This document shows, piece after piece, positions 3,144-33,811 of a DNA stretch of 33,811 nucleotides; the stretch's first letter is position 1; the number at the start of each line of letters is the position of its first letter. Both the position numbers and the translations under genes were made by a program. Where the stretch lies: contig JAILKT010000115.1 in the NCBI GenBank assembly GCA_024693545.1, positions 1 to 33,811 of the forward strand. The letters are read 5' to 3'. Below the pieces are notes generated by a model that was not told where the DNA came from, searched no databases, and was given only the letters and a program-made list of their open reading frames with translations. This stretch comes from Lachnospiraceae bacterium (GTDB lineage: Bacteria; Bacillota; Clostridia; Lachnospirales; Lachnospiraceae).

Positions 3144-3144
3144 A

Positions 3145-9132: not shown

Positions 9133-9202
9133 TTCTTTGCCTCCTCTAAACATGTGTATGAAAACACATATCAGTTCTCATTCTAAAGTCATTAAAATTC
9201 TG

Positions 9203-13659: not shown

Positions 13660-13731
13660 AATTGCTCCTTTCTCATAAGCATCGGTGTTTTAACAAAACC
13701 TGCTCCTTACTCAAGTGATACGTCCCGATCG

Positions 13732-16618: not shown

Positions 16619-18052
16619 TTAATCACTTTTACTGTTATCGACAAGAGCCTGTACTATTTCGGGATATCTTATAGTATTAGCTTTTCTGTCAAATATGCCG
16701 AAACGTTCGCCTGAACCGAAGAAAACGTTATTATCCCACCAGAAACAGGTAATACCGAATTCGCGGGCTTTTTTCACGTAATATCCCGCATAATCGGTTC
16801 TTGCCTCAAGATTTCCTCCTTTATCCCTGGCTCCGAATTCATCAATAACAACGCCGATCCCTTTATCAATAAATTTAAGCTTTAGCTTCAACATCAAATT
16901 GTTAATTTCCGCCGTGCTGCCGTTATCAAGTGAATTAAACATATCGGTACTGTTTGAATCGGTAGGTGAGGAAAGAGCAAAATTATAAGGCGAGTAGGCA
17001 TGCACTTCGACAAGTATCTTATTGTCAGCCGTATCAGCGGGCAAAACGAACTCGTCGCTGATCGCGGCATTCCACTGCGCCGCATAAGCCGGAACCAGAA
17101 GATATCTTTCGGCATTATTGCTGCCCTGTGCTCTTACAGTATCTACAAACAGCTGATTCAGTTCATTTATACACCTTACGGCATCATGACACATTTCGTT
17201 GTCAGAAAGTGACCATTCGTTTGACGTACCTACAAGTCTCGGTTCGTTAAGCGCTTCGAATATGAGGTGATCGTCATAGTCCTTAAATGTCTCTCCTACC
17301 TGCTCCCATATTTTTCTGACATAATTCTTCGATTGTTCAAGATATTCGCTTGTAGGATAAAAATATTCTTTTGAATTGTCATGATGGATATTTATCGTAC
17401 AATACATATCCCTCTCTATAACATAATCAACAATTTCTTTTACTCTATCAAGCCATGGTTTTTCAATGTTAAAATCCTTATCTACATGATTATGCCACGA
17501 AACAGGTATACGGATAGATTTAAAACCCGCCGATTTAAGCGTATCTATCATCTCCGGAGTAGTCCTTGCACCGCACCATGCCGTTTCAAGATCAAGGTTT
17601 GCACCGCTCTTGGCGCTGTTGTTCGCGTCCATTGTATTACCGAGGTTCCACCCGATCCGTAATTTTCTCACGAAAGCAAGAGCCCCGGTAAGACCTTGTA
17701 CATCATCATCTTCATGGACTATTTCCTTCGGTTCGGAGTTTTCTGTTTCGTCTTTTTCAGTTTCAGTACCCCCGGTGATATCCTTATCTGTGGTTTCCGT
17801 ATTATTCTTGTCCGTAGTTTCATCGGTAATATTTTCAATAGCCTCTTCGGTCCTGACTGTTATATTTTCCGATGAAACAGATTCTTTTACTTCTTGTTTT
17901 TTGTCTTCCTGATTATCTGTTTCCGTACTCAAAGTTTCTTTTACATCATTAGCTTTATTTCCCGAACCTGAGCAAGAAGAAATTGACCCGAGTATTAATA
18001 TAAGTACTAACAATAAGGCGGATATCTTTAATGTTTTAAACGTTCTGTTCAT
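16619..18052 (-). CDS. GH5 endo-glycanase, surface lipoprotein
   Basis: Secreted, lipid-anchored endo-acting glycosidase of 477 residues. ATG 18052 starts a lipoprotein signal (MNRTFKTLKISALLLVLILILGSISSC, lipid Cys27) and follows AAAGGA; the upstream in-frame ATG at 18178 would add 42 unlikely residues. Residues 30-115 form a Glu/Thr/Asp/Lys-rich linker. The GH5 barrel (about 120-470) has LRIGWNLGNTMDA, IRIPVSWHNH, IHHD, the acid/base E270 in FEALNEPR, VHAYSPYNF, and the nucleophile E405 in VVIDEFGARD. The pattern resembles subfamily GH5_4 (endoglucanase, xyloglucanase or mixed-linkage glucanase), so it probably attacks a glucan rather than xylan itself. It converges with AraC regulator 2, and no terminator is visible between them. 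Confidence 0.92.
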   Translation of the reverse strand: MNRTFKTLKISALLLVLILILGSISSCSGSGNKANDVKETLSTETDNQEDKKQEVKESVSSENITVRTEEAIENITDETTDKNNTETTDKDITGGTETEKDETENSEPKEIVHEDDDVQGLTGALAFVRKLRIGWNLGNTMDANNSAKSGANLDLETAWCGARTTPEMIDTLKSAGFKSIRIPVSWHNHVDKDFNIEKPWLDRVKEIVDYVIERDMYCTINIHHDNSKEYFYPTSEYLEQSKNYVRKIWEQVGETFKDYDDHLIFEALNEPRLVGTSNEWSLSDNEMCHDAVRCINELNQLFVDTVRAQGSNNAERYLLVPAYAAQWNAAISDEFVLPADTADNKILVEVHAYSPYNFALSSPTDSNSTDMFNSLDNGSTAEINNLMLKLKLKFIDKGIGVVIDEFGARDKGGNLEARTDYAGYYVKKAREFGITCFWWDNNVFFGSGERFGIFDRKANTIRYPEIVQALVDNSKSD

Positions 18053-18087
18053 GTTTTTTCCTTTCGAGCCTATAATTAATAAGTTTT

Positions 18088-18145
18088 CGGTTCTCGTCCC
18101 GCGAGAGCCGGCGCCTGACTTGGCACGGGCGATGTCTGTCGATAC
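18088..18145 (-). promoter_or_regulatory. GC-rich structured 5' leader of the GH5 gene
   Basis: About 60 bases of very high GC content in an AT-rich intergenic region, lying between the probable GH5 start point and its ATG. On the minus strand two adjacent hairpins can form: GTGCC/GGCGC (18126-18122 with 18115-18111, one G-T pair) and a 9-bp stem with one mismatch (18110-18102 with 18096-18088, loop of five). An alternative pairing joins CCCGTG to CGCGGG around both. It matches no riboswitch consensus I know. It could be a regulatory leader or a stabilising element, or a small RNA on either strand. Confidence 0.4.
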
Positions 18146-18157
18146 TGTGTTCAAAAA

Positions 18158-18163
18158 ATTATC
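18158..18163 (-). promoter_or_regulatory. Possible extended -10 box of the GH5 gene
   Basis: Minus-strand TGTGATAAT places GATAAT behind a TGn element, with no clear -35. It predicts a start near 18151 and a leader of about 100 nt containing the GC-rich element. Confidence 0.4.
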
Positions 18164-18196
18164 ACAATTTGGAAACAATTTACCACTACGGTCTTA

Positions 18197-18225
18197 TTGA
18201 AACTTTTACGGTACTGGTTTATAAT
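18197..18225 (+). promoter_or_regulatory. Promoter of the small membrane protein gene
   Basis: TTGAAA (18197-18202), exactly 17 bp, TATAAT (18220-18225): a near-consensus sigma-A promoter, with a leader of about 30 nt. Confidence 0.8.
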
Positions 18226-18261
18226 ATATCAGACTTAAAAATGAAAACAAGGGGAAAAAAT

Positions 18262-18534: not shown

Positions 18535-18585
18535 TGATCTTATAACGATCATCAGATCAGAGCGTAAGTCTCAGATATAAATAAT

Positions 18586-18619
18586 CCCCGAATGCATGGT
18601 ATAATGCCTGCATTCGGGG
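18586..18619. terminator. Bidirectional Rho-independent terminator
   Basis: A perfect 11-bp stem (CCCCGAATGCA at 18586-18596 with 18609-18619) and a 12-base loop. T-rich sequence follows on the plus strand (ATTTTT by 18630) and ATTATTTAT follows on the minus strand. It serves both the small membrane protein gene (plus) and the convergent aminotransferase gene (minus). Confidence 0.85.
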
Positions 18620-18636
18620 TATACATTTTTCAGGGA

Positions 18637-19662: not shown

Positions 19663-19716
19663 AACTCATCATTCCCTTCTTTAAATTATTTCTATATTTT
19701 TTACTAATATTCTGTT

Positions 19717-19744
19717 ATGATAGCACTACGTGCTTAAAAGTCAA
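19717..19744 (-). promoter_or_regulatory. Promoter of ilvE with palindrome in the spacer
   Basis: Minus-strand TTGACT (19744-19739), 16 bp, TATCAT (19722-19717) with TGC before the -10. The spacer holds the inverted repeat GCAC-GTA-GTGC, which could be an operator half-site pair. Confidence 0.65.
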
Positions 19745-19820
19745 GCCTTTATTCATATATTAGCGGCTGATGAAGCATTCTGCAGTCAACTGTTAATATA
19801 TAACATTTACTTTATTACAT

Positions 19821-19849
19821 AAAAAGAGTCGCCTGTTTAGGCGACTCTT
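19821..19849 (-). terminator. Terminator of the transporter cluster
   Basis: A perfect 10-bp stem (19824-19833 with 19840-19849), six-base loop, with TTTTTA following on the minus strand. It lies 21 bases past the stop of the last binding-protein gene. Confidence 0.85.
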
Positions 19850-19870
19850 ATTTATTTAAAGATAATACTA

Positions 19871-21382
19871 TCAATAGCTGTTTGCAACACCTACATAGTA
19901 ATCGATCTCATCCTTCATTTCTTCATACTGCTCCTGACCTGTCTTGGAGTCAATATTCCAGAAGTAAGAGTTGTCACGGTTAACGTTATCAACAAGAGGG
20001 AAGAGCTGAGGAATAGGATTCCTTGTAAGGATTTCAAGAGTCTCATCAACCGCACGAGTATCTCTGAACTGAGGATAGTATCCTGTCTTCCAATCGTCTA
20101 CATCCTCATATCCGGGAGTAGGATTTGTGTAAAGGTTGAATGCAAATGCGATCTTCCAAGCTCTGTCATCATCATAGATAGCAGGGATAACACGAAGATG
20201 ATCGTATGAGTAGCAAGTATAATCTGAAACTGCAGGTCCCTTAGGGAATACTACAAATCCAAAATCATCGGGAAGCTCTGCATTGTTGGCAACTCTGTAC
20301 TCCTCTGCTGCCTGAAGGGCAACCTCAGCATTAAGGAATGCTGTGTAAGGGAAGTCATACTGAGCACCTTCGGGAGCGGGGAGCTGATACTTAGCACGCA
20401 TATCTTTTGCCCAGTCCCAAGCCTGAATAAAGTTATCTGTACCTGTTGCATTTACAAATTTGCCTTCAGCATCACGCTCAATAATGAAAGCGTTATTTGA
20501 TGCAAGACAAGGTTTCATAAAGTCATAGTTTGTAGAGCACATAGCATATACATCGGGGATATCATCGCCGTTTGTATCACGTGTGAGCTTAGCACAAAGT
20601 TCTTCAAATGCTGCCCAATCCCATGTACCTGCTGCCTGCATATCATAAAGAGATTCGGGATCTACACCTGCTTCGGTAAGGAGTCTCTTGTTAAAGAAGA
20701 TACCTCCACGAGGCTCTGTTCTGTCTGCTCTCATACCATAGATGGAATCGCCGATCTTAAGGAGCTCTTTAGCTGACTTGTCCCACTTTTCCTCCGTAAA
20801 GTCAAGACAATCAAGTGTTGTAAGATCCTTATAAAGACCTGATCTGAAACCACTGAAACTTCTCTCGTCGCATACGAAAACATAGTTCTCATCGCCACCG
20901 GTTGTACAGAAGTTTGTAAGGAGTGAAGGATAGTCATTCCAGCTACCTATCGACTCTTCTTTAATAGTAAAGTTATAGGTCTTCTGAATCCAGTCACGGT
21001 AATTCTTGGTAGCCTCACCGTATGCTGTAGATTCATCGGGATCGGGGTTTGCCCACCAAGCTGCGATCTTAACTTCCATTCCGCCAAGATCTATGGGGTT
21101 GCCGTCAGCACCAACAATAACATCGGGGAATTCATCTTCCTCTTCTTCCTCTTCTTCCTCTTCAACATCAGCCCCATCATCAGGAGTATCAACGTCTGCA
21201 TCTGCAACATCAGTCGGTGCTTCTTCCTTCTTCTCGGTTTCGGAAGTTGTTGCTGTGTCCTTAGAGTCCGCTTCATTCGTTGTAGGTTCTGTCTTATCTC
21301 CGCCGCTCGAAGAACATGCCGCACATGAAAGAACGAGAACTAAGATCATGAAGAGCGCTACAAGCTTACTAGTCTTTTTCAT
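19871..21382 (-). CDS. Sugar ABC transporter solute-binding lipoprotein (SBP 1)
   Basis: 503-residue extracellular binding protein. A lipoprotein signal peptide ends at Cys23 (VLSCAAC-SSSGG). A Thr/Asp/Glu-rich linker follows, including nine consecutive glutamates (74-82), before the binding fold starts at about residue 100 (GGMEVKIAAWWANPDP). Family-1-like features are the ligand-cleft start MEVKIAAWW, GDSIYGMRADRTEPRGGIFFNKRLLTEAG, and TWDWAAFEELCAKLTRDTNGDDIPDVYAM, with acidic DTNGDDIPD resembling a calcium loop. The ligand is probably an oligosaccharide. It is last in the cluster, 129 bp after the preceding permease gene, with its own strong promoter, so it is likely made in excess over the permeases. 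Confidence 0.9.
   Translation of the reverse strand: MKKTSKLVALFMILVLVLSCAACSSSGGDKTEPTTNEADSKDTATTSETEKKEEAPTDVADADVDTPDDGADVEEEEEEEEEDEFPDVIVGADGNPIDLGGMEVKIAAWWANPDPDESTAYGEATKNYRDWIQKTYNFTIKEESIGSWNDYPSLLTNFCTTGGDENYVFVCDERSFSGFRSGLYKDLTTLDCLDFTEEKWDKSAKELLKIGDSIYGMRADRTEPRGGIFFNKRLLTEAGVDPESLYDMQAAGTWDWAAFEELCAKLTRDTNGDDIPDVYAMCSTNYDFMKPCLASNNAFIIERDAEGKFVNATGTDNFIQAWDWAKDMRAKYQLPAPEGAQYDFPYTAFLNAEVALQAAEEYRVANNAELPDDFGFVVFPKGPAVSDYTCYSYDHLRVIPAIYDDDRAWKIAFAFNLYTNPTPGYEDVDDWKTGYYPQFRDTRAVDETLEILTRNPIPQLFPLVDNVNRDNSYFWNIDSKTGQEQYEEMKDEIDYYVGVANSY
21136..21162 (-). repeat. Three tandem 9-bp units encoding poly-glutamate
   Basis: The plus strand shows CTTCCTCTT three times in a row, read on the minus strand as nine glutamate codons in SBP 1. 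Copy-number change by slippage in 3- or 9-base steps would keep the frame and only alter linker length. Confidence 0.85.
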
Positions 21383-21477
21383 AAAACCTCTCTCTTTCTC
21401 ACCACTTGGGTGCTAAAATATTGAGTTCGCAATTAAGCAAACACATCAGCATCGAAAAATTTCCGACGCCAATTAAC

Positions 21478-21506
21478 ATTATAAATCAGCAGGTTAAAAG
21501 CGTCAA
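21478..21506 (-). promoter_or_regulatory. Internal promoter in front of SBP 1
   Basis: Minus-strand TTGACG (21506-21501), exactly 17 bp, TATAAT (21483-21478): one mismatch from sigma-A consensus. It starts five bases beyond the permease stop and gives a leader of about 90 nt with a short GGAAA/TTTCG inverted repeat. Confidence 0.82.
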
Positions 21507-21511
21507 GCAAC

Positions 21512-22519
21512 CTACATCTTGATACCTGTCGAAGAAAGAGATTCAACGAATCCTTTCTGAGCGATCAGGTATAACAGAATAATCGGAACGACAACAAGCA
21601 GCACGCCTGTAGCATTCATTTGTTGAAGTAAAGCTTCGGACGCAAGTCCGGTTCTTTGATTAACTATCTGATAATAATTGGTGTAATTATCGGCAAGCGA
21701 TGCAAGTCCCGTCGATAAGAGGTCTTTACCTCCGATGAAAAGTGCCGAATAAAAACTGTCGGTCCACTGCCATACAAATGAGAAGAGGAAACACGAAGTA
21801 ATGATCGGTTTCGCATCGGGAAGCATGATCCTGACAAATGTATAAAGTGTTCCGCATCCGTCAACATAAGCAGCTTCTTCAAGTTCCTTGGGAATACCGC
21901 GGAAGAACTGACGTACAAGGAAAATATAAAGACCGTTTTTGAGTCCCATACATCCGGCTGACATAAGGAAATAAGGAATAACGGAACCTCTCAGATTTAC
22001 CGCTGATCCTGTAAATGTTTCAAACAGTCCGAATACATCGAAGAATCTGAAGTGAAGGTAAAGGGGTGAAGAAATTGTCTGGGGCGGAATAAGAATAATA
22101 AGTATAACACACGCAAACCAAAATTTCTTAAGCGGGAAATTAAACCTCGCAAACCCGTAACCAACAAGCGTACATGCACAGATCTGAACTATCGATACGG
22201 CAATTGAGATCCAAAGCGAATTAAACAATGCCTTCCAATAGTTCATAAGTTCCATAACAACCGAATAATTGGCTGTCGTAAGATGACGCGGCAAAATATT
22301 TATGGTAGTGTCATAAAGATCCTTCTCTGTCATAATACTTACACAGAATTTGTTTACGATCGGTTCAAGGATCATAAAACAAAGACCGAAAATAAGCACA
22401 AATCTAAGTATCTTAAGCACAACAGAGCCGGTAGTCTTTTTCAAAAGATATCCACCGCTTAGTCTGTTTCTCTCACTGAAGGATCTGCGTCCTTCCACTG
22501 CTGCCTTTGCTTTACTCAT
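21512..22519 (-). CDS. Sugar ABC transporter permease, MalG-like (pair 1)
   Basis: Inner-membrane permease of 335 residues of the carbohydrate uptake family (MalG/second-permease type). About six transmembrane segments are seen, starting with VVLKILRFVLIFGLCFMILEPIV. The cytoplasmic ATPase-contact loop is clear: EEAAYVDGCGTLYTFVRIMLPDAKP. The C-terminus SLSSTGIKM resembles the typical ending of MalG-type permeases. ATG 22519 overlaps the stop of the upstream permease gene by 8 bp. It works with the neighbouring permease and SBP 1. No ATPase gene is nearby, so a shared MsmK/UgpC-type ATPase must be supplied from elsewhere. Confidence 0.92.
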   Translation of the reverse strand: MSKAKAAVEGRRSFSERNRLSGGYLLKKTTGSVVLKILRFVLIFGLCFMILEPIVNKFCVSIMTEKDLYDTTINILPRHLTTANYSVVMELMNYWKALFNSLWISIAVSIVQICACTLVGYGFARFNFPLKKFWFACVILIILIPPQTISSPLYLHFRFFDVFGLFETFTGSAVNLRGSVIPYFLMSAGCMGLKNGLYIFLVRQFFRGIPKELEEAAYVDGCGTLYTFVRIMLPDAKPIITSCFLFSFVWQWTDSFYSALFIGGKDLLSTGLASLADNYTNYYQIVNQRTGLASEALLQQMNATGVLLVVVPIILLYLIAQKGFVESLSSTGIKM

Positions 22520-23420
22520 AATAGTACACCACCCTCGAAATTATTAGCGTAGATATACCGATCCAGGCTATAACCACTCCGAAATAGATCCAGGCCAGTG
22601 CCGATCCGTAACCAAAGTCAAGGTTACGCGTAACCTCTGTCTGAACCTGCTGTATTACCTGGTTGTCAGACTTCATGAAAAAGTCGATGATGGTATATAT
22701 CCAGTTTACAAGGAACATGGAGCTTATCATGGGGAAAGTGATCTTCCAAAGACTCTCCCACTTTGTACAACCTTCGATATCAGCAGCCTCATACATACTC
22801 TTCGGAATAGTCTGAAGTGCGGAAAGGAAAATGATTATCTGAATTCCCGAAGCAATGGCAATATCATAAACCGAATTAACAAGTTCAATTATCTTTTCTA
22901 CAAATCCGCTCGCCATATCGGTATTTGAAAGAATAATCTCAAGCGTATCGGCTATGCCCGAAGAGGATGATCCCTCTATCATCTCCTTCATGCCCGAAAG
23001 CAGCGTATTGTTATACTCAAGGCCTACAACAACACCGGAAGAAAAAATAACGGGAAGGAAGAATACGGCTCTTACAAAAGCTCTGCCCTTAAACTTCTGA
23101 TTTAACAGGAGCGCGATAAAGAAACTGAAAATGATCGTTGCCAAAGAGTTAAAGACCATCTTCGATATTTCCTCAAGGAGCATACGCGAAAAATTAGGAT
23201 CGATCGTAAGCGCTCTTTTATAGTTATCAAGTCCTGCATAAACGTTCTCAAATCCCTCGGCACCAACCTGCACATCCGAGAAAGACATAATGAGCGATTG
23301 GATAAGCGGCTTAACCATAAACAACAGGAAACCAAGCACAAACGGAAGTATAAACAAATATCCGAATATGGCTCTTCTTCCGAGAAGCGACATCTTCGTT
23401 TTTTTATTTACCTTAGCCAT
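22512..23420 (-). CDS. Sugar ABC transporter permease, MalF-like (pair 1)
   Basis: 302-residue membrane permease with an N-terminal segment (RRAIFGYLFILPFVLGFLLFMVKP) typical of first permeases of sugar importers, about six transmembrane segments, and the EAA loop YEAADIEGCTKWESLWKITFP at about 210-230. A hydrophilic insert (about 140-185, with GSSSSG) between transmembrane segments is longer than usual. The start is ATG 23420, nine bases after AGGTGA; an alternative GTG at 23429 overlaps the DUF5696-like stop and has no room for a ribosome binding site. It forms a heterodimer with the downstream permease. Confidence 0.9.
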   Translation of the reverse strand: MAKVNKKTKMSLLGRRAIFGYLFILPFVLGFLLFMVKPLIQSLIMSFSDVQVGAEGFENVYAGLDNYKRALTIDPNFSRMLLEEISKMVFNSLATIIFSFFIALLLNQKFKGRAFVRAVFFLPVIFSSGVVVGLEYNNTLLSGMKEMIEGSSSSGIADTLEIILSNTDMASGFVEKIIELVNSVYDIAIASGIQIIIFLSALQTIPKSMYEAADIEGCTKWESLWKITFPMISSMFLVNWIYTIIDFFMKSDNQVIQQVQTEVTRNLDFGYGSALAWIYFGVVIAWIGISTLIISRVVYYYE

Positions 23421-23425
23421 ATATG

Positions 23426-25981
23426 TCACTCACCTCTCTTTACTACATAGTCCCTTGCGGGAACTTTCACACCATTTGAATCTATATCCTTATATGCGTA
23501 ATTAACATATACTTTAGTGCCGTCTTCATATTCTGTGATCCTCACACCACTGTCATCTACCGTGTGTCCGATCATCTTTTTATTTGAAACGCTGTCAAAA
23601 TCATTTTTGAAACGCTTATATATAGCAGCGGCTTTATCTTTCCACAGATCAAATGAGGAACCGTAGTATTCGGAATACATTGTTTCCTGTATCCTTTCGG
23701 GAGCACATTTCATAAACGTAAATGTGAGACCCGCACCAAATTCCGCAGACTTAAGTATCTCATATTCAAAGTCTTCGGAAAGGTTTATCGGAACGCCTGT
23801 ATAATCGACAAGATCGTGAATAGCCATCTCAAAGAAAGGAATATCATAATCTATGATCGCCATATTTGAATTACTGATATCCATCGATGTAACTACATCA
23901 GCATATTCAAGAGCATAATCATTGGCATGATTGACTATGGTACCCTTTTCGGATGCTAAAGAAAGTATCTCACATGAAATGTCTTTTGCTTCTTCTCTCG
24001 TAACCTTTTCCTTCGGGTTATAATCGCTGTTGAGCAAATAGCCTGTATATCGAAGTGCCATTCCGATATCGTATTCATCGGTAAATGACTTAAACTCATC
24101 GAAACATTCTTTCTTATATGAAGGCTTGACAAGATAATACGGATCGTTAAAATCTTCCTGTCCATACCAAACAATCGAATAATCGTAAAGTTCAGCCTGT
24201 TCTCTCGATACAAATTTTGCACCGTCACGGAATCCGATATAACCGTCCGTCATTCCCGAATCGTAAGCAAAATCAGTCTGTCCTTCAAGATAAAGTTTAA
24301 TTTTTCTCTCACGCAGCTTTTCCAGCATGTCTTTAAAATCACTTTTGCCGCCGAGTTTCGATATAAGATCAACATCTTTTAATACATAGTGTTTAACACC
24401 ATCGTTTATCGCACCGGTTAGCTTAAGATCAAAATCGTCAACTCCGAGGTTCTTAAGTTCATCAACAATTTCAACCGTTTCATCATAAGTAGTAAGTTCA
24501 AGCGGCTGCTTATACGGAATTCCGGCTGTCTGCTGAACTTTATCTATCGCTCCTATTACTTCAATGACCGCAGGCAATCCTTCATCCTTTTTCGATCCGA
24601 GCGAAGGATACCTTTCAAGAAGATATTGTCTGTATACTCCGGCCATATCGCTGTAATTATCTTCACTTCCGAATCTGTATCTCTGAGAGATATTCTGCTT
24701 CGGAAGTGTTTCCTCATAAACATAGAATGTTGCATTAGATCTCTCGGTAACATCGTAAGACTCATAATGTATAAACGAATATCCGGCATCGGCATGATTA
24801 TAACTGTCGAAACGTCCGCTGACATCTGCGGTTATATTGGCATAGGAGGCTCCATCTTCAAGCATACACAGGAACGAAGCACCGTTTTTCGACATTCCGA
24901 ACATGGGGAATGAATTTCTTGTCTCGGTAACAACGGATGTTCTCGAAGAACAGTAATCCCATCCGTAAACATTAGCATAATAAGGATTCTGACCGAATCT
25001 TCCGTTATTAAATTCAATAACGGCTCCGCCGCTTTCCGGAACAACGATAAATCCTTCATCTTCGGTACTGCCTGCACCGAAATAAGGTAAGATTTCAATA
25101 TTTGTTATAGGATAATCGGGTTTAAATTCAACCTTATCCATTGGTACATTGACTATAAGATCACGTCCGTCAAGCTTATATTCAACCGAAATATTAAAAA
25201 GCGGAATATCCTCCGACTTCTTGGTCGAATAACGTGACAAATGCGCCTGATACTGTTCTTCTGTATAACCGGCCTCCCAGAAATACTTCTCAATTGCTGC
25301 TTTCAAATGCTGAGCAACACCGTCACGAAGTATATAAAGCTTCATATCTGCAAGATCGGGATAACTTTCAAGAAGTTCTTCTTTATTATCCGATGCTCTC
25401 AGATTATTGATATCTGTCTTTCTGTAATACTCTTTAACCTGTTTGGCGGCTTTCTTCTCCATATTTTTGGTAATGGCTTTAAAATCCTTTTCGGGAAGTG
25501 CAAGGGGAATTTTAAATTCTTTCTCTGTATTACCGATCGTATAATTGACCGTGATCGAATCCTTACCCTCTTCTATCTCAAAGATTCCCTTATCAATACT
25601 GTATGCACAGTTATTATAAGTGGTAAGGATACCCTTTATATTTCCGTAAGTAATATAGAGCGTTGACTTAAGATTGGCCTTTTTATCAAGCGTGGGCGCA
25701 AGAGGATCATTGTCTGCTTCTGCGGGATTGGATTCCCAAACGGCTCCCGTAGCTTTATCCGTAACAGAGAAACGCGAAGTAGCTCGGTCCATCGAAAAGA
25801 TAAGGTCATCGTTTTCCATCACGGCAATACCTTCTCCGGGCGATCCTCCTCTGATCTCGATCTCAACAGGCGCCGCCTCTTCGGGCTGGATCATATAAAC
25901 AAACAAGACAATAAGACCCAAAACTGCTATCGGGATAACGATATTCAGTATAGTTTTAATCCAGGATTTCTTTCCTTTCAC
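23426..25981 (-). CDS. Membrane-anchored extracellular protein, DUF5696-like, possible glycosidase
   Basis: 851 residues. One N-terminal transmembrane anchor (about 12-31) is followed by a large extracellular part. Residues 40-440 look beta-rich (VTDKATGAVWESNP, NITADVSGRFDSYNHADAGYSFIHYESY). Residues about 470-800 alternate strands and helices like a TIM barrel with conserved-looking acidic sites (GVDDFDLKLTGAINDG, KLYLEGQTDFAYDSG, VPINLSEDFEYEI). I recall proteins of this shape beside sugar ABC transporters in Firmicutes under the name DUF5696. A distant relation to GH101-type glycosidases is my inference. The start is GTG 25981 with GAGGAGG eight bases ahead. It ends five bases before the permease start, so it is clearly in the operon. 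Confidence 0.7.
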   Translation of the reverse strand: MKGKKSWIKTILNIVIPIAVLGLIVLFVYMIQPEEAAPVEIEIRGGSPGEGIAVMENDDLIFSMDRATSRFSVTDKATGAVWESNPAEADNDPLAPTLDKKANLKSTLYITYGNIKGILTTYNNCAYSIDKGIFEIEEGKDSITVNYTIGNTEKEFKIPLALPEKDFKAITKNMEKKAAKQVKEYYRKTDINNLRASDNKEELLESYPDLADMKLYILRDGVAQHLKAAIEKYFWEAGYTEEQYQAHLSRYSTKKSEDIPLFNISVEYKLDGRDLIVNVPMDKVEFKPDYPITNIEILPYFGAGSTEDEGFIVVPESGGAVIEFNNGRFGQNPYYANVYGWDYCSSRTSVVTETRNSFPMFGMSKNGASFLCMLEDGASYANITADVSGRFDSYNHADAGYSFIHYESYDVTERSNATFYVYEETLPKQNISQRYRFGSEDNYSDMAGVYRQYLLERYPSLGSKKDEGLPAVIEVIGAIDKVQQTAGIPYKQPLELTTYDETVEIVDELKNLGVDDFDLKLTGAINDGVKHYVLKDVDLISKLGGKSDFKDMLEKLRERKIKLYLEGQTDFAYDSGMTDGYIGFRDGAKFVSREQAELYDYSIVWYGQEDFNDPYYLVKPSYKKECFDEFKSFTDEYDIGMALRYTGYLLNSDYNPKEKVTREEAKDISCEILSLASEKGTIVNHANDYALEYADVVTSMDISNSNMAIIDYDIPFFEMAIHDLVDYTGVPINLSEDFEYEILKSAEFGAGLTFTFMKCAPERIQETMYSEYYGSSFDLWKDKAAAIYKRFKNDFDSVSNKKMIGHTVDDSGVRITEYEDGTKVYVNYAYKDIDSNGVKVPARDYVVKRGE

Positions 25982-26000
25982 GAGTACATCCTCCTCTTAA

Positions 26001-26022
26001 GAAACAGAATAAATACTGTTTC
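26001..26022 (-). other. Intercistronic hairpin
   Basis: A 7-bp stem GAAACAG/CTGTTTC with an 8-base loop lies just ahead of the ribosome binding site of the DUF5696-like gene, with no T-run after it. It could stabilise or process the long transcript. Confidence 0.4.
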
Positions 26023-26052
26023 CGTGCCGAAAATTTAATCTATGTATCAGAT

Positions 26053-26733
26053 TTAGTACAATCTAAAGATCACTTCTCTGTAAAGAGAATAAAAATATGC
26101 TCCGGCGTCGCTGATCAAACTGAAGAAAAGTAACAACAGGAATATGACCACTGCCATGCCGACAAAAGTAAACAAAATAACAAGTATTGTTTTGCCTATT
26201 GAATAAGCATGCACCATCATGATAGCAGAAATAAACAACAGCGCCGCCCATACGATAGAAAAATCATGGAAGAAATAATTAAACGTATCCTCTTCTTCCG
26301 CAAGGAAATTACTGAGAATGGTATTCGGTATAACGATCAAAGGATAAGGCGTCATGGCATAAGCCGAAGAGATCCAAACATCCTTAAGTGTTCCTTTTCC
26401 GTCAAACAGTGTAGTGAGTGCCCAGTTTGTAATTACAAAGATAATGAACGGAAGAAGGATTCCGAGCATTTCTATCAGGAAATTCGCACGTTCAAGGTTA
26501 ACTTTGATAAACTGAAACGTTGTAAATTCAAGTCTGAATACGGAAGTGAGCAGAGAGAGTATCAAAATAAAGTTAGCTGCCGCAAGACTACCTCTTTTTT
26601 CATGTGTCAGATCCCAGAATCCGTCAAAGGGATGAACGATCACGTATAACGCATATCGAAGGCTCTTGAAAAATCTGTCATATGCAGCTCTGTTTGTAAA
26701 GAAATCAATTATTCTTCTTGCTGTCGTTTTCAA
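26053..26733 (-). CDS. YIP1-family multi-pass membrane protein
   Basis: 226-residue integral membrane protein with about five hydrophobic segments (around 50-70, 88-110, 125-145, 160-178, 182-208) and a basic N-terminus. The pattern, with VIVHPFDGFWDLTHEKRGSLAAANFILILS and YAMTPYPLIVIPNTILSN, resembles the Yip1 domain. Bacterial members have no agreed function. The start is TTG 26733, with GGAGGTG nine bases ahead; this frame overlaps the end of the NHL/TPR gene by 29 bp. It may be a membrane partner of the NHL protein or of the importers; that is inference from the tight gene coupling. Confidence 0.75.
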   Translation of the reverse strand: MKTTARRIIDFFTNRAAYDRFFKSLRYALYVIVHPFDGFWDLTHEKRGSLAAANFILILSLLTSVFRLEFTTFQFIKVNLERANFLIEMLGILLPFIIFVITNWALTTLFDGKGTLKDVWISSAYAMTPYPLIVIPNTILSNFLAEEEDTFNYFFHDFSIVWAALLFISAIMMVHAYSIGKTILVILFTFVGMAVVIFLLLLFFSLISDAGAYFYSLYREVIFRLY

Positions 26734-28201
26734 ATGCCTTCACCTCCCATCTGACTTTTTTGATCCTTCCGATCAAAAGTGGTACTACAAGTACAAGTAT
26801 GATAACAATAAATATTAAGACTATATGATCTTCAACCCATTGTTTTCGGTACAGCTGAAAAGCATCTCCGTAATTCTTGTCCGAATATTTAATTTTGAAA
26901 TACGACATTGCTTCTTCATATTTATCCTGCCTTAGCAGCGCTCGTCCGATGCCCTTATAAGCAAGCTCATTATTACCGTTGATCATAAGAACTTCTTTCC
27001 ACTCTTCGGCCGACTTGTCATACCTGCCTTGCTGATACTCATATATGGCAGAGAATATCTTTTTCCCGTAGAATGTAGGCGTCAATACTGTAAGCTGTGC
27101 ATCCTGAGAATCAAGGACTAAAAGATCATGTCCCATATGTTCGAGCGCGGTCGGCATTCTGAAATATCCGTCTTTGTTACCGTTACCACCAAAACAGCAA
27201 AGGATGTTGCCCTGATCATCATAACCGAATATTCTTCCTCTGATACGATCGAGAGCAAAATAAGTTCCGTCATCAAGAGCTGTTATATCAACCATTCTTG
27301 ACGCACCGGTGTAAACACCCTCATCGGCCCAGTTCAGATCACCTATAACAACCCAATCACCGTTTTGAACAAGGATATCATTTCCGAGTGAATTCAGTCT
27401 TCTGATAGGATCGACCGAACCATCACTGAGAGAACCCTCATAAAAGTTTGCGGTGACAACATACATAAACCCTTCATTATCTGTCGCGATATTATCATAC
27501 TCCGTAGGAACGAAGTCACTCATGGCATCTGCCTGAGCGTCCGATGCGATCCATGTCTTCCATATATAATCGAGCAGATCGTACGTAACAGGTGTGGCCC
27601 CGACGAAACCGTTAAATTTCCCGTCATTTTCGTATTTAACGATTCCCTTATTAACACGTTTAACAAGACAGAACACTCTGTCGGCACCGTCAACGATGAT
27701 TTTTGAAGGAAGGAATGTAATACTCTGATCAAAGTTTATATCATCGGGTTTTGTAAACTCCATGACAAACTGCAGATCCTTTGTAAGCTTAACTATCCTG
27801 TTATTCTCGGTATCGGCGATAAAGTAATGCTCATCGGTAACAAATATATCATTGGGCGAATTAAAAGTATTAAGCTCCGCTCCTTCGAATGAATCAATGA
27901 TCTCTTTAACGTTATACTCTTCATCAACGCATTCAATAACGATGATCCTGTTATTTCCGGTATCACATATGTATATGAGATTATCTTTTACGAACAATCC
28001 CTGAGCCTTTGACAGTTTATCTTCGAGACCGAGTTCAATATGAGTTAAAGTCTTTTTTACAGCATAAGGATTGGGTGAATGAATCTCTTCACCCCAAAAA
28101 TCATAGTTATACGAATAACCTGAATCTGCGTTAGATAAGGCAGCAGGCGAAGCCGCAGCCAAAACAAGAACAAGAGCTGTGAGTACTGCTATTTTCTTCA
28201 T
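26705..28201 (-). CDS. NHL beta-propeller / TPR protein with C-terminal membrane anchor
   Basis: 498 residues. Signal peptide (MKKIAVLTALVLVLAAASPAALS), then about six NHL-type blades from about 60 to 375 (DTGNNRIIVIE, FIADTENNRIVKLTKD, IATDNEGFMYVV, FALDRIRGRIFGYDDQG, VLDSQDAQLTVLTP). A TPR-like helical part follows (about 382-455, FSAIYEYQQGRYDKSAEEWKEVL and GIGRALLRQDKYEEAMSYF), then one transmembrane helix (about 459-477) and a short basic cytoplasmic tail. The propeller and TPR therefore face outside. The role is unknown; it could be a scaffold or a sugar or protein sensor for the transporters. ATG 28201 follows GAGGTGA; the in-frame ATG at 28270 lies inside the permease gene and is unlikely. 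Confidence 0.8.
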   Translation of the reverse strand: MKKIAVLTALVLVLAAASPAALSNADSGYSYNYDFWGEEIHSPNPYAVKKTLTHIELGLEDKLSKAQGLFVKDNLIYICDTGNNRIIVIECVDEEYNVKEIIDSFEGAELNTFNSPNDIFVTDEHYFIADTENNRIVKLTKDLQFVMEFTKPDDINFDQSITFLPSKIIVDGADRVFCLVKRVNKGIVKYENDGKFNGFVGATPVTYDLLDYIWKTWIASDAQADAMSDFVPTEYDNIATDNEGFMYVVTANFYEGSLSDGSVDPIRRLNSLGNDILVQNGDWVVIGDLNWADEGVYTGASRMVDITALDDGTYFALDRIRGRIFGYDDQGNILCCFGGNGNKDGYFRMPTALEHMGHDLLVLDSQDAQLTVLTPTFYGKKIFSAIYEYQQGRYDKSAEEWKEVLMINGNNELAYKGIGRALLRQDKYEEAMSYFKIKYSDKNYGDAFQLYRKQWVEDHIVLIFIVIILVLVVPLLIGRIKKVRWEVKAFENDSKKNN

Positions 28202-28211
28202 GCGCGTCACC

Positions 28212-29102
28212 TCAATCCTTAATACCCGAGCTTGCCATTGTTTCAAGTATCTGGCTCTCGGAAATAACAAACAACAAAATGGGAACGATCATGGTTACAA
28301 CAGAAACTGCAGCAGCCTGACCGGTCCTGGCAACACCGCCGAGGGAAACCTGTGAAAGAGCATAAACAAGCGCTTTCTTTTCCTCAGAGTAAATATAAAT
28401 CGAAGCGGGATTGTTCCAAAGACTCTGAACAGAGAAAATGATCATTGTAAGCCAGGCAGGTTTAACATTGGGCATTACTATCCTGGTAAATACATACCAT
28501 TCAGTAGCACCGTCAACCTTAGCGGCTTCAATCAGGGCAGTTGGCAATCCCTCCATAAACTGTTTCATTAGGAAAACACCCATAGGCGAAGCAAATGCAG
28601 GAATGATGATCGCAAGCAATGAGTCGATCAAATTGAGTGAATTCATGATGATATAGTTGGGGATCATCAGAATCGAGCCTGTAAACATAAGTGCCGTAAC
28701 AACTACACCGAATAAAAACTTGCTTCCGGGGAAATTATATTTTGCAAGCACGAACGCAGCCATCGATCCGATAAGCAGATGACCTGCCGTTCCGACAGCG
28801 GTTGTAAACAACGTGTTGAAAATATAACGCGAAAACGGAACCGTTGACTTGTTCATTGAAACGAACAGATCCGTAAAATTATCAAAGCTCGGGTTCTTAG
28901 CAAAGAACGTGGGCGGGAAACGGAACAATTCGTCCATTGGCTTTAGCGATTGATTGATCGCAAACAAAAGCGGAGCCACCATGATACAAGACATGATCGC
29001 AAGGAAAATATAGATACCTATATCTCCTCCTCTTGAACGGTTAGGCTGTCGCCGACGAAGTATCTTCGGTTTTTTGTGATAAGGCTTAGTAGATGTTTTC
29101 AT
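28212..29102 (-). CDS. Sugar ABC transporter permease, MalG-like (pair 2)
   Basis: 296-residue permease with six transmembrane segments. It has the typical second-permease opening IGIYIFLAIMSCIMVAPLLFAINQSLKP, the EAA loop IEAAKVDGATEWYVFTRIVMPNVKPAW, and the end ILETMASSGIKD. ATG 29102 is preferred over the in-frame ATG at 29120 because GGAGAGAGA lies between them. Its stop is 10 bp ahead of the NHL/TPR gene start, whose ribosome binding site overlaps this gene's end. It pairs with the permease at 29185-30123. Confidence 0.92.
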   Translation of the reverse strand: MKTSTKPYHKKPKILRRRQPNRSRGGDIGIYIFLAIMSCIMVAPLLFAINQSLKPMDELFRFPPTFFAKNPSFDNFTDLFVSMNKSTVPFSRYIFNTLFTTAVGTAGHLLIGSMAAFVLAKYNFPGSKFLFGVVVTALMFTGSILMIPNYIIMNSLNLIDSLLAIIIPAFASPMGVFLMKQFMEGLPTALIEAAKVDGATEWYVFTRIVMPNVKPAWLTMIIFSVQSLWNNPASIYIYSEEKKALVYALSQVSLGGVARTGQAAAVSVVTMIVPILLFVISESQILETMASSGIKD

Positions 29103-29184
29103 ATTAATCTCTCTCTCCATACAGAAGCTGTTTTATAACATCTTCAGTTTCCTCGCGTTAAACACGGCAAATAAATTATTTTTG

Positions 29185-30123
29185 TTAATGACCTACTCTT
29201 CTGAGCAGTGCCTGAATTGCCTTGTTGCAAAGTATCATCGCAAGGAAAAGAATTGTAGCGATTGCCGAAGCATAACCCATTTCAAATCGCGTAAAACCGT
29301 AATCGTAAAGGTGGGTAACTATAGTACGTGCAGCGTAATCCGTACTGGGATATCCGCAAAGTGCCATTGTCTGCGCGCTGACGCCGAACGAAGAAGTAAT
29401 TGCCATAACTGCACCAAACAAAAGCATGGGCTTCATGTTCGGAAGTGTTATATACCAAAGTTCCTGCCATCTGTTCTTTACACCGTCAATATATCCGGCT
29501 TCATATTGGGCTTTATCAACACCTTGAAGTCCGGCTACAAAGCCGAGGAATCCGGCGCCCATCGAAAGCCACAGCAGAACTGCGATTATCAGTCCCATCA
29601 TATAATCCGGGTTTGTAAGGAAAAATATAGGTTCGTTTATTATGCCCACATCGATCAGCATACCGTTTACATATCCGTATGCATCACCTCTGAAGAAGAT
29701 CGAGAAAATATAGTAAATATTTCCGGCGATCGACGGTGAATAGAACATAATAACAACTATCGCACGCAGCCATTTGGGAAGCTCGTTGATAAACCATGCG
29801 CATACAAACTGGAGCATATATCCGATAGGTCCCGTAATAACTGCGATAATGAATGTATTTTTAATAGCGATCAGGAATACATCATCCTGCAATATCAGAT
29901 TGATGTAATTCTGAAGGAATATAAATTTCGGTGGTTCCAAAATGTTGTAGTACGTAAAGCTGTAATATATTGACGAAAAGATCGGCAATATATAGAAGGT
30001 GAAAAAGAGTACAAAAAACGGAAGCAGGAATAAGTAGCACGTCTTCATGGACTTTGCTTTCTTCCACGCAATACGCATATTGTTCTTTTTCATACTTACA
30101 TATGATTTTGCAAACGATGACAT
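29185..30123 (-). CDS. Sugar ABC transporter permease, MalF-like (pair 2)
   Basis: 312-residue first permease of a sugar importer. The N-terminal transmembrane segment (YLFLLPFFVLFFTFYILPIFSSIYYSFTYYN) and the EAA loop YEAGYIDGVKNRWQELWYITLPNMKP are clear; the second position pair reads EAG instead of EAA. ATG 30123 follows GGAGGAGG by five bases, and the in-frame TTG at 30138 overlaps that site. It lies 66 bp after SBP 2, with a small AGATAA/TTATCT inverted repeat in the gap. Confidence 0.92.
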   Translation of the reverse strand: MSSFAKSYVSMKKNNMRIAWKKAKSMKTCYLFLLPFFVLFFTFYILPIFSSIYYSFTYYNILEPPKFIFLQNYINLILQDDVFLIAIKNTFIIAVITGPIGYMLQFVCAWFINELPKWLRAIVVIMFYSPSIAGNIYYIFSIFFRGDAYGYVNGMLIDVGIINEPIFFLTNPDYMMGLIIAVLLWLSMGAGFLGFVAGLQGVDKAQYEAGYIDGVKNRWQELWYITLPNMKPMLLFGAVMAITSSFGVSAQTMALCGYPSTDYAARTIVTHLYDYGFTRFEMGYASAIATILFLAMILCNKAIQALLRRVGH

Positions 30124-30189
30124 AGCATCCTCCTCCAAAAGAGCGTATCATAGATAACTCGCTTAATTATCTGTAACGTTAAAATAATG

Positions 30190-33114
30190 TCAATCGGTAT
30201 CCAGACCGTATTCCTTACGTTTCTTAGTGATCTCTTCATTGATCGTTCTTGTATAGTCAAGAAGTACTTCTCTCTGATCAAGCTTTTGATTAACAACCTT
30301 TCGTACGGCATTGGTCAAATGACGGCTTGTATAGTAACCACCGGCAATCTCTCTGAAACCCCTTGCCCATTTTCTCTGTTCTTCAAGGACCTTGATCTGA
30401 TCGGCACTCCATGCAAGCTGTTTAAATGCCACATCATTTGCGGTTGCATATCTTGCAGCCGATCCCATAACAGACTCAAGCTCTCGGCCGTATCTAACCT
30501 GTGTTTCCGATTTTGCCCACCATTTCATGAATGTCCAGGCATTATTTCTGATCTTATCATTATCCGTCTTTATCATCATGGAGCATTGACCCCATCCGTG
30601 AACGGATCTGTCTATATATTCCTGTCCGTTTTCATCTGTTTTCTTTACACCGGGAAGAGGCATGAAATCCCAGAGTCCGCGAAGTTCGGGTGCAGAAAGG
30701 ACAAGCGTATTGAATGTATTATAATCCGCAATACCGATCGGCACTTCACCCGAACGGAATCTTGTTACGAAATCAAGCTCGAGCGGAATACCGTAATCTA
30801 CAAACAGACTTGTAAATTGGGTGAACGCCTGAACACTTTCCTCATTATCTATCTGTATCTTTTTGCCTTCGTCATCATAAAAGTCGCCGCCATGCTGATA
30901 TGTCATAGATATCAGTAATGAAAGGTCGGGATTGATAACGTTACCTATCTTACGTTCTGTTGAAGGAACTGCAAGAGTCATACTGTTACCCTGTATGGTA
31001 GGCAGCATATTTATGAGATCATCCCATGTCTGAGGCGGTTCAAGACCAAGTTCCTCAAGAATATCCTTGCGATAGAACATAACGTTGTAATTAAGTGTCT
31101 CGGGAAGTGCATACATACCGCCTTCAAAAAGATAAGAACGATACGAACTGAGCGGGTACTCCGAAAGGACTTCATCAAGATCGGGGAACTGCGAAAGATC
31201 TTCTACCGCATTACGAAGAGCGTAATTTACAGGATCCTGCTGCGGTGCTGTAAGAACAACATCGGGACCCTTTCCGGCAACAACCGCGGGAAGAAGTGCA
31301 TCGGCTTGAATAAGCTGAACATTGACCTTAATTCCTGTTTCCTGAGTAAAAGTATCATCAACCATCATCTTCATGATGTCATTTTGATCACGACCTGCAA
31401 GAAGCCATACTTCGATCGTATCTTCATCGTCCTCATCATATACATCTCCGATCGAGTTGTAATCGTAGAAGAACGATACAAAGAATGATTTGATGTCATG
31501 CCAGAGATTCGAGAAGAAGCCTGCGTCATCATCGACTTTTTCAGAATCCTTTCCCTGAACGATCATATAATCAATATCAAGCTTGCTCTCGCTGATCGTA
31601 TTGATCGAAGTACCGAGCGCTGCAATATTCTCTTTGAAGTTGGAAAGTGTTTTGGTTATATCACGGGGATCATTGTTAAATCTTTCAAGCTGCGAAGCAA
31701 GGGTTATCGCATTTGCGATCTGATCGGACTTCTCACCCGTGATGGCAATATAATCATCGACAGTCTTAAAGAGCCTTTTACTCTCAAGACCCATCGCCTC
31801 GATGATATCGGGATATACTTCTTTGATATTATAATCTCTGTGAGCATCGGGATTTGTTCCGGTAAGTACGATCAGTTTTCTGTAAATAAGATTAAGACGG
31901 TAAACACTGTCCGAAAGATCGTTAAGTACCTGTCCGAGATCTCCGAGGGTTGCTTCGAGTCTTATGGTATGTTTACCCTTTGTAAGGTAGAAATCATAAG
32001 GATCTTCGTTTTTATCCGAAAGGGTTATCATATCCCAATCGGTATTATATACAAAGCCGATAGCTCTGGCCTCTTCAAAAGGAAGCTGACCGTCTATCGT
32101 GATCTTTCTGGAAGAAATGCCGCCACGCTGGTATCCCTGACGACCTTTGATAGTGATATTATAAAATCCGTCGCCGGGCACATCAAATTCCCATTCTATC
32201 CATTGTCCGGGAACCTTCCATGCGTCACCGCCGATATAATTCAGTTTTGTAGTAGTAATACTGTATGGATCGGTATTGGATACAGATTTATCAAAACGAG
32301 CATAAAGAGAGGCATCGGAACGTCCCGTCGCATTCTCTCCGTCAACCTTAACGACGTACGAAAGGGACTCCGGAGAGGCGCTCATTCCATTATGATCCTT
32401 TGAATACTGAGAATAATCATAATCTGCATTGATCGGTAAGAAATCAAGTGATTTAATGATGACTGGCTCGTTAACTGCCTTAAGAGAAATAATATTTTTT
32501 CCTTCATCAAGCCAAAATCTGTAGGGCTCTATCTCATATCCGAGATAATCGGAGAACATACTCTCCTGCCACTCAAATTTTTCAACCTGTGAAGGACGAA
32601 GCTCGTTTCCTCTGTTATCTGTCCTGACTTCGCTTCCGTTGGTCCAGATACGGGAAAACGCAAGATCTTCGGCTCCGACAAATGGAACCTCTCCGTTTAT
32701 CCTGAATTCTCTTTCGATATCAACGCCTCTGCTCTGTACAGGATAATAATTAATAGAAACATTATAAAGACCGGACTGAGGTGCGTTAACCTCCCAGGTA
32801 ACATCCGAACTGTCACCGGTGTATAAAACATGATCCACACCGTCACATTCGTCCATTACTTCACAATCGACCGCTTCAAAATAATCTGCAGCTTCAATAG
32901 AAAATCCTTCCGTAGCAAGTGCCGAAGACTCATGTTCAAGCTTAAAAAGCTTGTATGTGTTTTCACGGCCAAGTCCACGTACGTCATATGAAAGGTCTGT
33001 TCCTTCGTATTTTTTCAAAAAATTATCTTCTTCAAAAAGTCCTAAGATCAAAACAAAACCGATAATAAAAACAACAATGGCAGCAAATACGATCAGTCCC
33101 TTAGCCTTTTTCAC
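30190..33114 (-). CDS. Membrane-anchored ABC solute-binding protein fused to two sugar-binding-like domains (SBP 2)
   Basis: 974 residues, about twice a normal binding protein. Order: N-terminal transmembrane helix (5-26) without a lipobox cysteine; beta-sandwich A (about 70-225, TWEVNAPQSGLYNVSINYYP, EFRINGEVPF, KNIISLKAVNEPVII); beta-sandwich B (about 255-390, GQWIEWEFDVPGDGFYNITIKG, RKITIDGQLPF, GKHTIRLEA), both like CBM6/35-type folds; a helical stretch (about 395-545); an acidic joint; and a family-1 binding fold (about 565-974, EVWLLAGRDQNDIMKMMVDDTF, GKGPDVVLTAPQQDP, ALPETLNYNVMFYRKDIL). The start is GTG 33114 with GGAGG seven bases ahead. It is the first gene of the 13-kb cluster, directly before permease pair 2. 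Confidence 0.88.
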   Translation of the reverse strand: MKKAKGLIVFAAIVVFIIGFVLILGLFEEDNFLKKYEGTDLSYDVRGLGRENTYKLFKLEHESSALATEGFSIEAADYFEAVDCEVMDECDGVDHVLYTGDSSDVTWEVNAPQSGLYNVSINYYPVQSRGVDIEREFRINGEVPFVGAEDLAFSRIWTNGSEVRTDNRGNELRPSQVEKFEWQESMFSDYLGYEIEPYRFWLDEGKNIISLKAVNEPVIIKSLDFLPINADYDYSQYSKDHNGMSASPESLSYVVKVDGENATGRSDASLYARFDKSVSNTDPYSITTTKLNYIGGDAWKVPGQWIEWEFDVPGDGFYNITIKGRQGYQRGGISSRKITIDGQLPFEEARAIGFVYNTDWDMITLSDKNEDPYDFYLTKGKHTIRLEATLGDLGQVLNDLSDSVYRLNLIYRKLIVLTGTNPDAHRDYNIKEVYPDIIEAMGLESKRLFKTVDDYIAITGEKSDQIANAITLASQLERFNNDPRDITKTLSNFKENIAALGTSINTISESKLDIDYMIVQGKDSEKVDDDAGFFSNLWHDIKSFFVSFFYDYNSIGDVYDEDDEDTIEVWLLAGRDQNDIMKMMVDDTFTQETGIKVNVQLIQADALLPAVVAGKGPDVVLTAPQQDPVNYALRNAVEDLSQFPDLDEVLSEYPLSSYRSYLFEGGMYALPETLNYNVMFYRKDILEELGLEPPQTWDDLINMLPTIQGNSMTLAVPSTERKIGNVINPDLSLLISMTYQHGGDFYDDEGKKIQIDNEESVQAFTQFTSLFVDYGIPLELDFVTRFRSGEVPIGIADYNTFNTLVLSAPELRGLWDFMPLPGVKKTDENGQEYIDRSVHGWGQCSMMIKTDNDKIRNNAWTFMKWWAKSETQVRYGRELESVMGSAARYATANDVAFKQLAWSADQIKVLEEQRKWARGFREIAGGYYTSRHLTNAVRKVVNQKLDQREVLLDYTRTINEEITKKRKEYGLDTD

Positions 33115-33218
33115 TTTAAAGCCTCCTGATATGATTTTCTTCCGAAACTATACTTGATCGTTATTATGAACGTCTCAATTGTTTCGGTCTCAATATCCCT
33201 GTTTTCAAAAATATACTT

Positions 33219-33247
33219 ATAATAATCTTTGAAAATGCACTTCTCAA
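33219..33247 (-). promoter_or_regulatory. Promoter of the 13-kb transporter cluster
   Basis: Minus-strand TTGAGA (33247-33242), exactly 17 bp, TATTAT (33224-33219). The leader of about 98 nt contains a 7-bp inverted repeat (CCGAAAC/GTTTCGG, 33 bases apart) that encloses a smaller CGTT/AACG stem, a possible operator or leader structure. Confidence 0.65.
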
Positions 33248-33310
33248 ATTATAGCTTGATTTGGTATGTACCGACTTATCAAAAGTTGCTATCGGATGCT
33301 CGTATAGTGC

Positions 33311-33350
33311 TAATAAACCGCTGAATTACAAGTAATACAGCGGTTTATTA
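33311..33350 (-). terminator. Hairpin terminator of the isomerase gene
   Basis: A perfect 13-bp stem (33311-33323 with 33338-33350) and a 14-base loop. The T-rich end of the stem (TTTATTA) replaces a separate T-run. It lies about 110 bases beyond the isomerase stop. Confidence 0.65.
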
Positions 33351-33460
33351 TATGATTATTGGTAAAAATGCCTATATAACAAGGTTTTTATGCAAAATTA
33401 CAGTTAAATTTCAACCAATCAAATAATGCTAAACATCTTGATACGGATGATTTTCCCGAC

Positions 33461-33811
33461 TTATTTAAAAGGATTCTCAGTAGGATAAGGAAGAGATGCG
33501 GGATGATTGTAATCAAGGTCCTCGATCGGAACTCCGATGTACTTAAATACTTCAAAGAGTGCCTTTCCGAAATGACCGAATGCAACAGCACCGTGATGAG
33601 GGAAATTCTTCTCAATAAGTACATGACGATAGAATCTGCCCATCTCGGGAATAGCAAATACACCGATACCACCGAATGACTTTGTTCTTACATCAAGCAC
33701 CTCGCCCTGAGCGATATAAGCGCGAAGCTTAGCATCAGCGGTAGATTGAAGACGATAGAAAGTGATCTCGCCGGGAGCGATATCTCCTTCGAGTGTTCCG
33801 TTTGTAACCTC
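33461..33811 (-). CDS. L-fucose/L-arabinose isomerase-family enzyme, C-terminal 116 residues
   Basis: The frame is open to the right edge and ends at TAA 33463-33461, so only the C-terminus is here. The stretch EVTNGTLEGDIAPGEITFYRLQ, then VLDVRTKSFGGIGVFAIPEMGRFYRHVLIEKNFPHHGAVAFGHFG with clustered histidines, resembles the C-terminal domain of aldose-ketose isomerases of the FucI/AraA group. The substrate could be L-fucose, L-arabinose or another pentose. It probably belongs to a sugar-use operon to the right and is separated from the transporter cluster by a terminator and a promoter. Confidence 0.75.
   Translation of the reverse strand, partial: EVTNGTLEGDIAPGEITFYRLQSTADAKLRAYIAQGEVLDVRTKSFGGIGVFAIPEMGRFYRHVLIEKNFPHHGAVAFGHFGKALFEVFKYIGVPIEDLDYNHPASLPYPTENPFK

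Follow-up and report, generated by a model that had tools for sequence, protein, structure and literature searches.

The 33,811-nucleotide stretch of Lachnospiraceae DNA analysed here, referred to below as the window, encodes on its minus strand a 974-residue binding protein, SBPbig (30190..33114), in which an N-terminal transmembrane helix and two CBM35-like beta-sandwiches precede a CUT1-type solute-binding (SBP) domain. On balance, and with modest confidence, we read SBPbig as the constant, tethered extracellular binding subunit of a double CUT1-type ABC glycan importer whose outer parts vary from locus to locus. By its parts the system is of a known kind, a carbohydrate ABC importer, and what sets it apart is the tethered CBM-SBP architecture together with a fixed cassette holding two importers. 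Surface glycan capture in Gram-positive gut and soil bacteria is usually pictured as the work of secreted enzymes and a simple importer with a lipoprotein SBP. One fixed cassette, at least eight genes long and encoding two importers and three anchored exoproteins, occurs across Bacillota and Spirochaetota, at up to 14 match places in a single genome, which suggests a standard outer assembly that many soil and gut bacteria reuse for many polysaccharides. It also raises the question of why the SBP domain, which usually confers specificity, should be one of the most constant parts. In the open-access literature searched, which included few subscription papers, no paper naming or describing the cassette or a tethered CBM-SBP fusion was found, and within the same scope searches on CBM-SBP fusions, Yip1 with ABC transporters and NHL with Yip1 returned nothing on the cassette, the parts of which stand under generic names in NCBI records.

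The SBPbig gene starts at a GTG codon (33114) with an AGGAGG ribosome-binding sequence (33127-33122) 7 bases to its 5' side, and close relatives share the same start. All coordinates given below for genes, their domains and the terminator are likewise on the minus strand. The protein has a single hydrophobic segment, a strongly hydrophobic helix at about residues 7-27 (33034..33096), and no second TM-like segment or other anchor was seen in it, borderline stretches occurring in two relatives only. No obvious signal-peptidase site and no lipobox cysteine is present in the window protein, and a lipobox-like motif was found in 2 of 81 relatives; a lipobox is usual for CUT1-type SBPs in Gram-positives, although it is not strictly defining. 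The N-terminus is TM-like in the window clade, in Spirochaetes and in many Bacillales. Some members of the Lachnospiraceae branch begin with a signal-peptide-like sequence, so tethering is not universal in the family. A scan of genome contigs yielded 80 loci, nearly all encoding the whole SBPbig architecture, from Lachnospiraceae, other Clostridia, Treponema and other Spirochaetes, Paenibacillus and Cohnella. A local oddity or a misassembly is ruled out by these approximately 80 relatives of the same architecture. The original prediction was thus right in the position and length of the gene and in taking the N-terminal helix as an anchor without a lipobox, but the fusion that it had regarded as unusual is common within its own family.

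Only SBP_bac_1 and its sister model SBP_bac_8 were recognized in SBPbig by Pfam (residues 578-874), and no Pfam or NCBIfam name for the sandwiches rose above cut-off in the window protein, CBM_35 reaching 15.6 bits against a gathering cut-off of 28. Among 64 family members, weak Pfam matches were to Golvesin_C (50/64), CBM_35 (28/64 at E<=0.1) and GH115_C (12/64). An AlphaFold2 fold of residues 29-562, based on an alignment of 64 sequences, was obtained with a pLDDT of 93.3 and a pTM of 0.89. In it, two beta-sandwiches are followed by a four-helix bundle, one more strand and an amphipathic helix; the two beta-rich domains lie at about residues 71-226 (43-198 in model numbering) and 254-389 (226-361). 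Foldseek matched the model to CBM35, CBM6 and CBM51 sandwiches (2vzp, 2w1w, 2cdp and 2ygm). In profile comparison by hhalign, the two sandwiches proved homologous (99.5%, E 2e-23) and showed a distant relationship to the genuine CBM35 domains of GH26 enzymes adjoining the cassette (73% and 90%), so that AlphaFold2, Foldseek (2vzp, 2w1w, 2cdp) and hhalign agree on a CBM35/CBM6-type fold. We delimit sandwich 1 to residues 66-230 (32425..32919) and the more conserved sandwich 2 to residues 257-392 (31939..32346). The four-helix bundle, residues 393-507 (31594..31938), precedes the last strand of sandwich 2, residues 508-526 (31537..31593), which carries the motif LDIDYMIV with an invariant Asp515, and an amphipathic helix at residues 533-549 (31468..31518) leads into the SBP domain. 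When the bundle was removed from sandwich 2, its alignment to sandwich 1 grew from 88 to 104 columns and now included LDIDYMIV, and its match to CBM35 gained the corresponding LDYL strand; we therefore take the bundle to be inserted ahead of that final strand. Glu260 and Asp515, both conserved, fall at what we take to be the usual structural-calcium position of CBM6/35 modules. In a PDB profile search of the N-terminal region, the top matches were designed coiled coils on the helical bundle, which we read as composition rather than homology. The SBPbig sandwiches resemble CBM35 and CBM6 modules (2vzp, 2w1w) in fold and profile, while they differ in lying below Pfam cut-offs, in their tandem arrangement, in the helical insert of the second and in their fusion to an SBP. 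Judged from the predicted fold, polymer binding by the sandwiches is plausible.

In another family, the sandwich module occurs in a separate protein of about 540 residues (L092:9127-10809, L093:5154-6758, L094:7128-8495 and L095:980-2593), which has no SBP or transporter genes nearby and is found near a ROK-type kinase and a pseudouridine-synthase-like gene.

Family-wide conservation, expressed as the mean frequency of the commonest residue, was highest in sandwich 2 (0.61) and the SBP domain (0.60) and lower in the helical region (0.52) and sandwich 1 (0.49). The matching conservation of sandwich 2 and the SBP domain (0.61 vs 0.60), together with the helical bundle inserted in the former, would fit sandwiches and bundle that act purely as a protein-protein docking or spacer element, assembling the exoproteins and binding no glycan. 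However, the fold group consists mainly of carbohydrate-binding modules, and a sandwich protein without a nearby transporter in another family indicates that the module can occur independently of the cassette; we regard a purely docking role as rather unlikely.

The SBP domain proper occupies residues 561-974 (30193..31434), with PF01547 (SBP_bac_1) matching residues 578-872 at E 1.7e-23 and 84.5 bits, against a cut-off of 26. The score above gathering and the paired PF00528 permeases with EAA loops together place it among CUT1-type SBPs. Its best solved relative is Lin1841 of Listeria innocua (5ysb; E 4e-28 with the family profile), a stand-alone SBP of about 400 residues that differs from SBPbig in being without sandwiches. 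These results support the predicted architecture, in which a CUT1-type SBP carries two CBM-like sandwiches, is held by a transmembrane helix and is encoded beside permeases with intact EAA motifs. The sandwiches, which had been placed at residues 70-225 and 255-390 with a similar layout and proposed for structure prediction and fold search, were recovered close to those positions, and, as far as prediction goes, a fold other than a beta-sandwich is excluded for both regions. To that picture the analysis adds the gene cassette and two elements of the protein, the inserted helical bundle (393-507) and the amphipathic helix (533-549).

In the window, SBPbig is followed by permease A1 (29185..30138; EAA motif EAGYIDG...ITLP) and permease B1 (28212..29120; EAAKVDG...IVMP). 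Next come an NHL beta-propeller and TPR protein with a C-terminal TM helix (26705..28270, its likely real start with a signal peptide at 28201), a Yip1-domain integral membrane protein (PF04893; 26053..26733) and a DUF5696 protein with an N-terminal TM helix (23426..25981). A second permease pair, A2 (22512..23429; EAADIEG...ITFP) and B2 (21512..22519; EAAYVDG...IMLP), is followed by SBP2 (19871..21382), a lipoprotein solute-binding protein with an LSCAAC lipobox and the variable member of the cassette. All four permeases match PF00528. An intrinsic-terminator-like hairpin, identified by pattern match only, would end the transcription unit at 19824..19849. The EAA motif is the docking site for MalK-type ATPases and is retained in all four window permeases; the window genome has one MalK-type ATPase gene, located on another contig (C75) away from the cassette, and its contig C44 carries a second copy of the cassette. 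In Paenibacillus cellulosilyticus, a ugpC-type ATPase gene lies directly upstream of SBPbig. Rfam elements, riboswitches included, were not found in 18000-33811, and a promoter scan gave no more matches than shuffled sequences. The gap that separates permease B2 from SBP2 (21382-21512) contains a hairpin and a promoter-like match, which would allow separate expression of SBP2, with the scan as a whole not above shuffles.

The gene order SBPbig-A1-B1-NHL/TPR-Yip1-DUF5696-A2-B2 was kept in 61 of the 63 loci with enough flank; of the two exceptions, the sequence of L014 ends after a long DUF5696 frame and the B1 frame of L031 is broken. SBPbig is the first of these eight genes, and a lipoprotein SBP usually adjoins them. 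Among 300 genomes of the phylum, the SBPbig N-terminal module was present in 33 and DUF5696 in 26, all 26 of which also carried the module (hypergeometric P 2e-31, relatedness ignored). NHL and Yip1 are fused in one frame in L104, L106-L110, L114, L115, L096:8312-10345 and L097:10079-12214, and, by size and annotation, in L100:16403-18562, while in the other paralogous regions they are separate neighbours. Such fusion in several relatives hints that NHL and Yip1 work together. The Treponema (Spirochaetota) copies suggest that the cassette has been transferred between phyla; in loci L019, L021-L023, L025-L027, L029 and L043, single core proteins from SBPbig to permease B2 are about 34-63% identical to those of the window. 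Genes for GH5 enzymes recur beside the cassette, and many cassettes have GH26-CBM35 genes immediately upstream. In Lachnospiraceae, a CBM65 tandem-repeat protein occupies the SBP2 position at L062:21310-22965, L049:21183-22817 and L069:21082-22953; a lipobox is present in both of those read (L062 and L049), and the protein is possibly a surface glycan-binding protein.

Which part of the machinery varies was best seen among paralogous cassettes. One Lachnospiraceae genome, that of L062, has 14 match places, of which two are short and lie next to each other; Paenibacillus soyae has 6. Across 15 paralogous loci from two genomes the cassette was kept, permease B1 not being recovered in L102 and L110 (one each). 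Their neighbours differ and include GH43 with an arabinose isomerase (AraA), a GH94-type SOGP phosphorylase, GH66, GH3-CBM6, GH35, GH13, GH26-CBM35 and GH30. Mean paralogue identities, given as a pair of means within each of the two genomes, were 0.47/0.48 for permease A1, 0.42/0.46 for permease B1 and 0.37/0.44 for the SBP domain, which is the least variable part of SBPbig among paralogues. Lower values were obtained for sandwich 2 (0.32/0.38), sandwich 1 (0.23/0.32), permeases A2 and B2 (0.33-0.37), DUF5696 (0.25/0.26) and SBP2 of the same loci (0.21/0.23). Because the SBP domain stays constant beside different glycosidases while SBP2 varies, a role of the former as a locus-specific oligosaccharide receptor is disfavoured. 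The original proposal that the C-terminal domain captures the released oligosaccharide is accordingly not supported, given mean identities of 0.37-0.44 for the SBP domain against 0.21-0.23 for SBP2. Since the SBP domain and A1/B1 are constant and the outer parts and SBP2 are variable, we prefer a constant tethered unit. Locus-specific recognition would, on these comparisons, reside in SBP2, DUF5696 and sandwich 1 and not in the SBP domain. Conservation of the SBP domain could, however, be maintained by its contacts with A1/B1 even if residues of the pocket differ between loci, and adjoining glycosidases point to a substrate only indirectly.

The same comparison bears on a model in which the sandwiches are true CBMs that hold polymer while the SBP domain captures a locus-specific oligosaccharide and passes it to A1/B1. 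Such a model draws on the CBM35-like folds, on the relationship of the SBP domain to known sugar-binding proteins such as Lin1841, and on the glycosidases that adjoin the cassette and the tandem CBM65 proteins beside some cassettes. By contrast, across differing loci the SBP domain is more conserved than any outer part and it is SBP2 that is variable, and no CBM Pfam model scored above cut-off in the window protein, which leaves the model unlikely in our view. That SBPbig-A1-B1 serves in the sensing or uptake of a common signal sugar and controls the second importer, and is not a nutrient importer, would account for the constancy of the SBP domain and A1/B1 and for two complete permease pairs per cassette, but is improbable given an ATPase-docking EAA motif in all four permeases and no dedicated regulator fused to, or conserved in, the cassette.

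For the preferred constant, tethered unit, we infer import as the direction of transport, the formation of a complex, glycan binding and a scaffold role of SBPbig. The N-terminal helix would hold SBPbig in the membrane, and the tandem CBM35-like sandwiches and bundle would form a stalk or scaffold that lifts the SBP domain and orients it over permeases A1/B1, the sandwiches perhaps also holding glycan chains weakly. The cassette would contribute two more membrane-anchored exoproteins, the NHL/TPR protein with its Yip1 membrane partner and the GH129-like DUF5696 protein. The second permease pair, A2/B2, would be served by the lipoprotein SBP2, the sequence of which changes between loci, and a shared MalK/MsmX-type ATPase encoded elsewhere would drive both pairs. 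As a more tentative possibility, which we put forward as speculation, the whole cassette may constitute one cell-surface machine, composed of two ABC importers, a tethered CBM-SBP, an NHL/TPR-Yip1 unit and a GH129-like pseudo-enzyme, and may be a Gram-positive counterpart of a SusCD-type utilisome; the SBP domain of SBPbig would then be the constant coupling element, with glycan specificity coming from exchangeable outer parts.

DUF5696, for which the open-access literature searched (few subscription papers) yielded no papers and which gains a context here, was modelled with a pLDDT of 90.4. By Foldseek, the model has the fold of GH129 and GH101 enzymes (5opq, E 2e-32; 5wzr, E 1e-25), resembling GH129 NagBb and ZgGH129 as well as GH101. 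It departs from GH129 at the column of NagBb Asp330, which we take to be the catalytic nucleophile: the residue there is mostly S, Q, T, N or E instead of Asp, and is Thr522 in the window. Other acidic residues are invariant or nearly so (D653, D711 and E747), and R662 is invariant. We reject a reading of DUF5696 as an active GH129 enzyme because the nucleophile is not conserved; the protein may be a glycan-binding relative of GH129/GH101 or an enzyme with another arrangement.

Known importers share part of this organization. In the CUT1-type importers with a shared MsmX/MsmK ATPase in Bacillota, exemplified by Athe_0595-0598 of Anaerocellum bescii (PMC12838199), an SBP and two permeases likewise lack a local ATPase and rely on a single MalK-type ATPase elsewhere. 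Unlike these, SBPbig is TM-tethered and several hundred residues longer at its N-terminus, and the window cassette adds a second permease pair, NHL/TPR, Yip1 and DUF5696. The beta-mannan locus of Roseburia intestinalis combines RiMnBP/RiMPP1/2 with a GH26 enzyme carrying CBM27 and CBM23 (PMC6385246), and thus resembles the many cassettes with GH26-CBM35 upstream in pairing an extracellular GH26 with an ABC importer. It differs in carrying the polymer-binding modules on the enzyme and in having one SBP and one permease pair, and neither Yip1 nor DUF occurs in the main text of that paper.

In the window, the cassette is followed by a lipoprotein GH5 endo-beta-glucanase (16619..18178), the closest solved relative of which is the beta-1,3-1,4-glucanase 4x0v. 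Genes for GH67, GH115, a GDSL hydrolase and GH3 occupy 1-7552 and 11485-15423, with two AraC-type regulators nearby. The set of GH3, GDSL hydrolase, GH115 and GH67 is typical of xylan side-chain removal, and these two segments are likely, from their gene content, to form a xylan side-chain degradation region. Given the GH5 glucanase next to it and the xylan side-chain genes further along, the substrate of the window cassette would, by context only, be a plant beta-glucan or xylan. Between the glycosidase genes, three subunits of a 2-oxoacid:ferredoxin oxidoreductase are encoded at 7850-10258.
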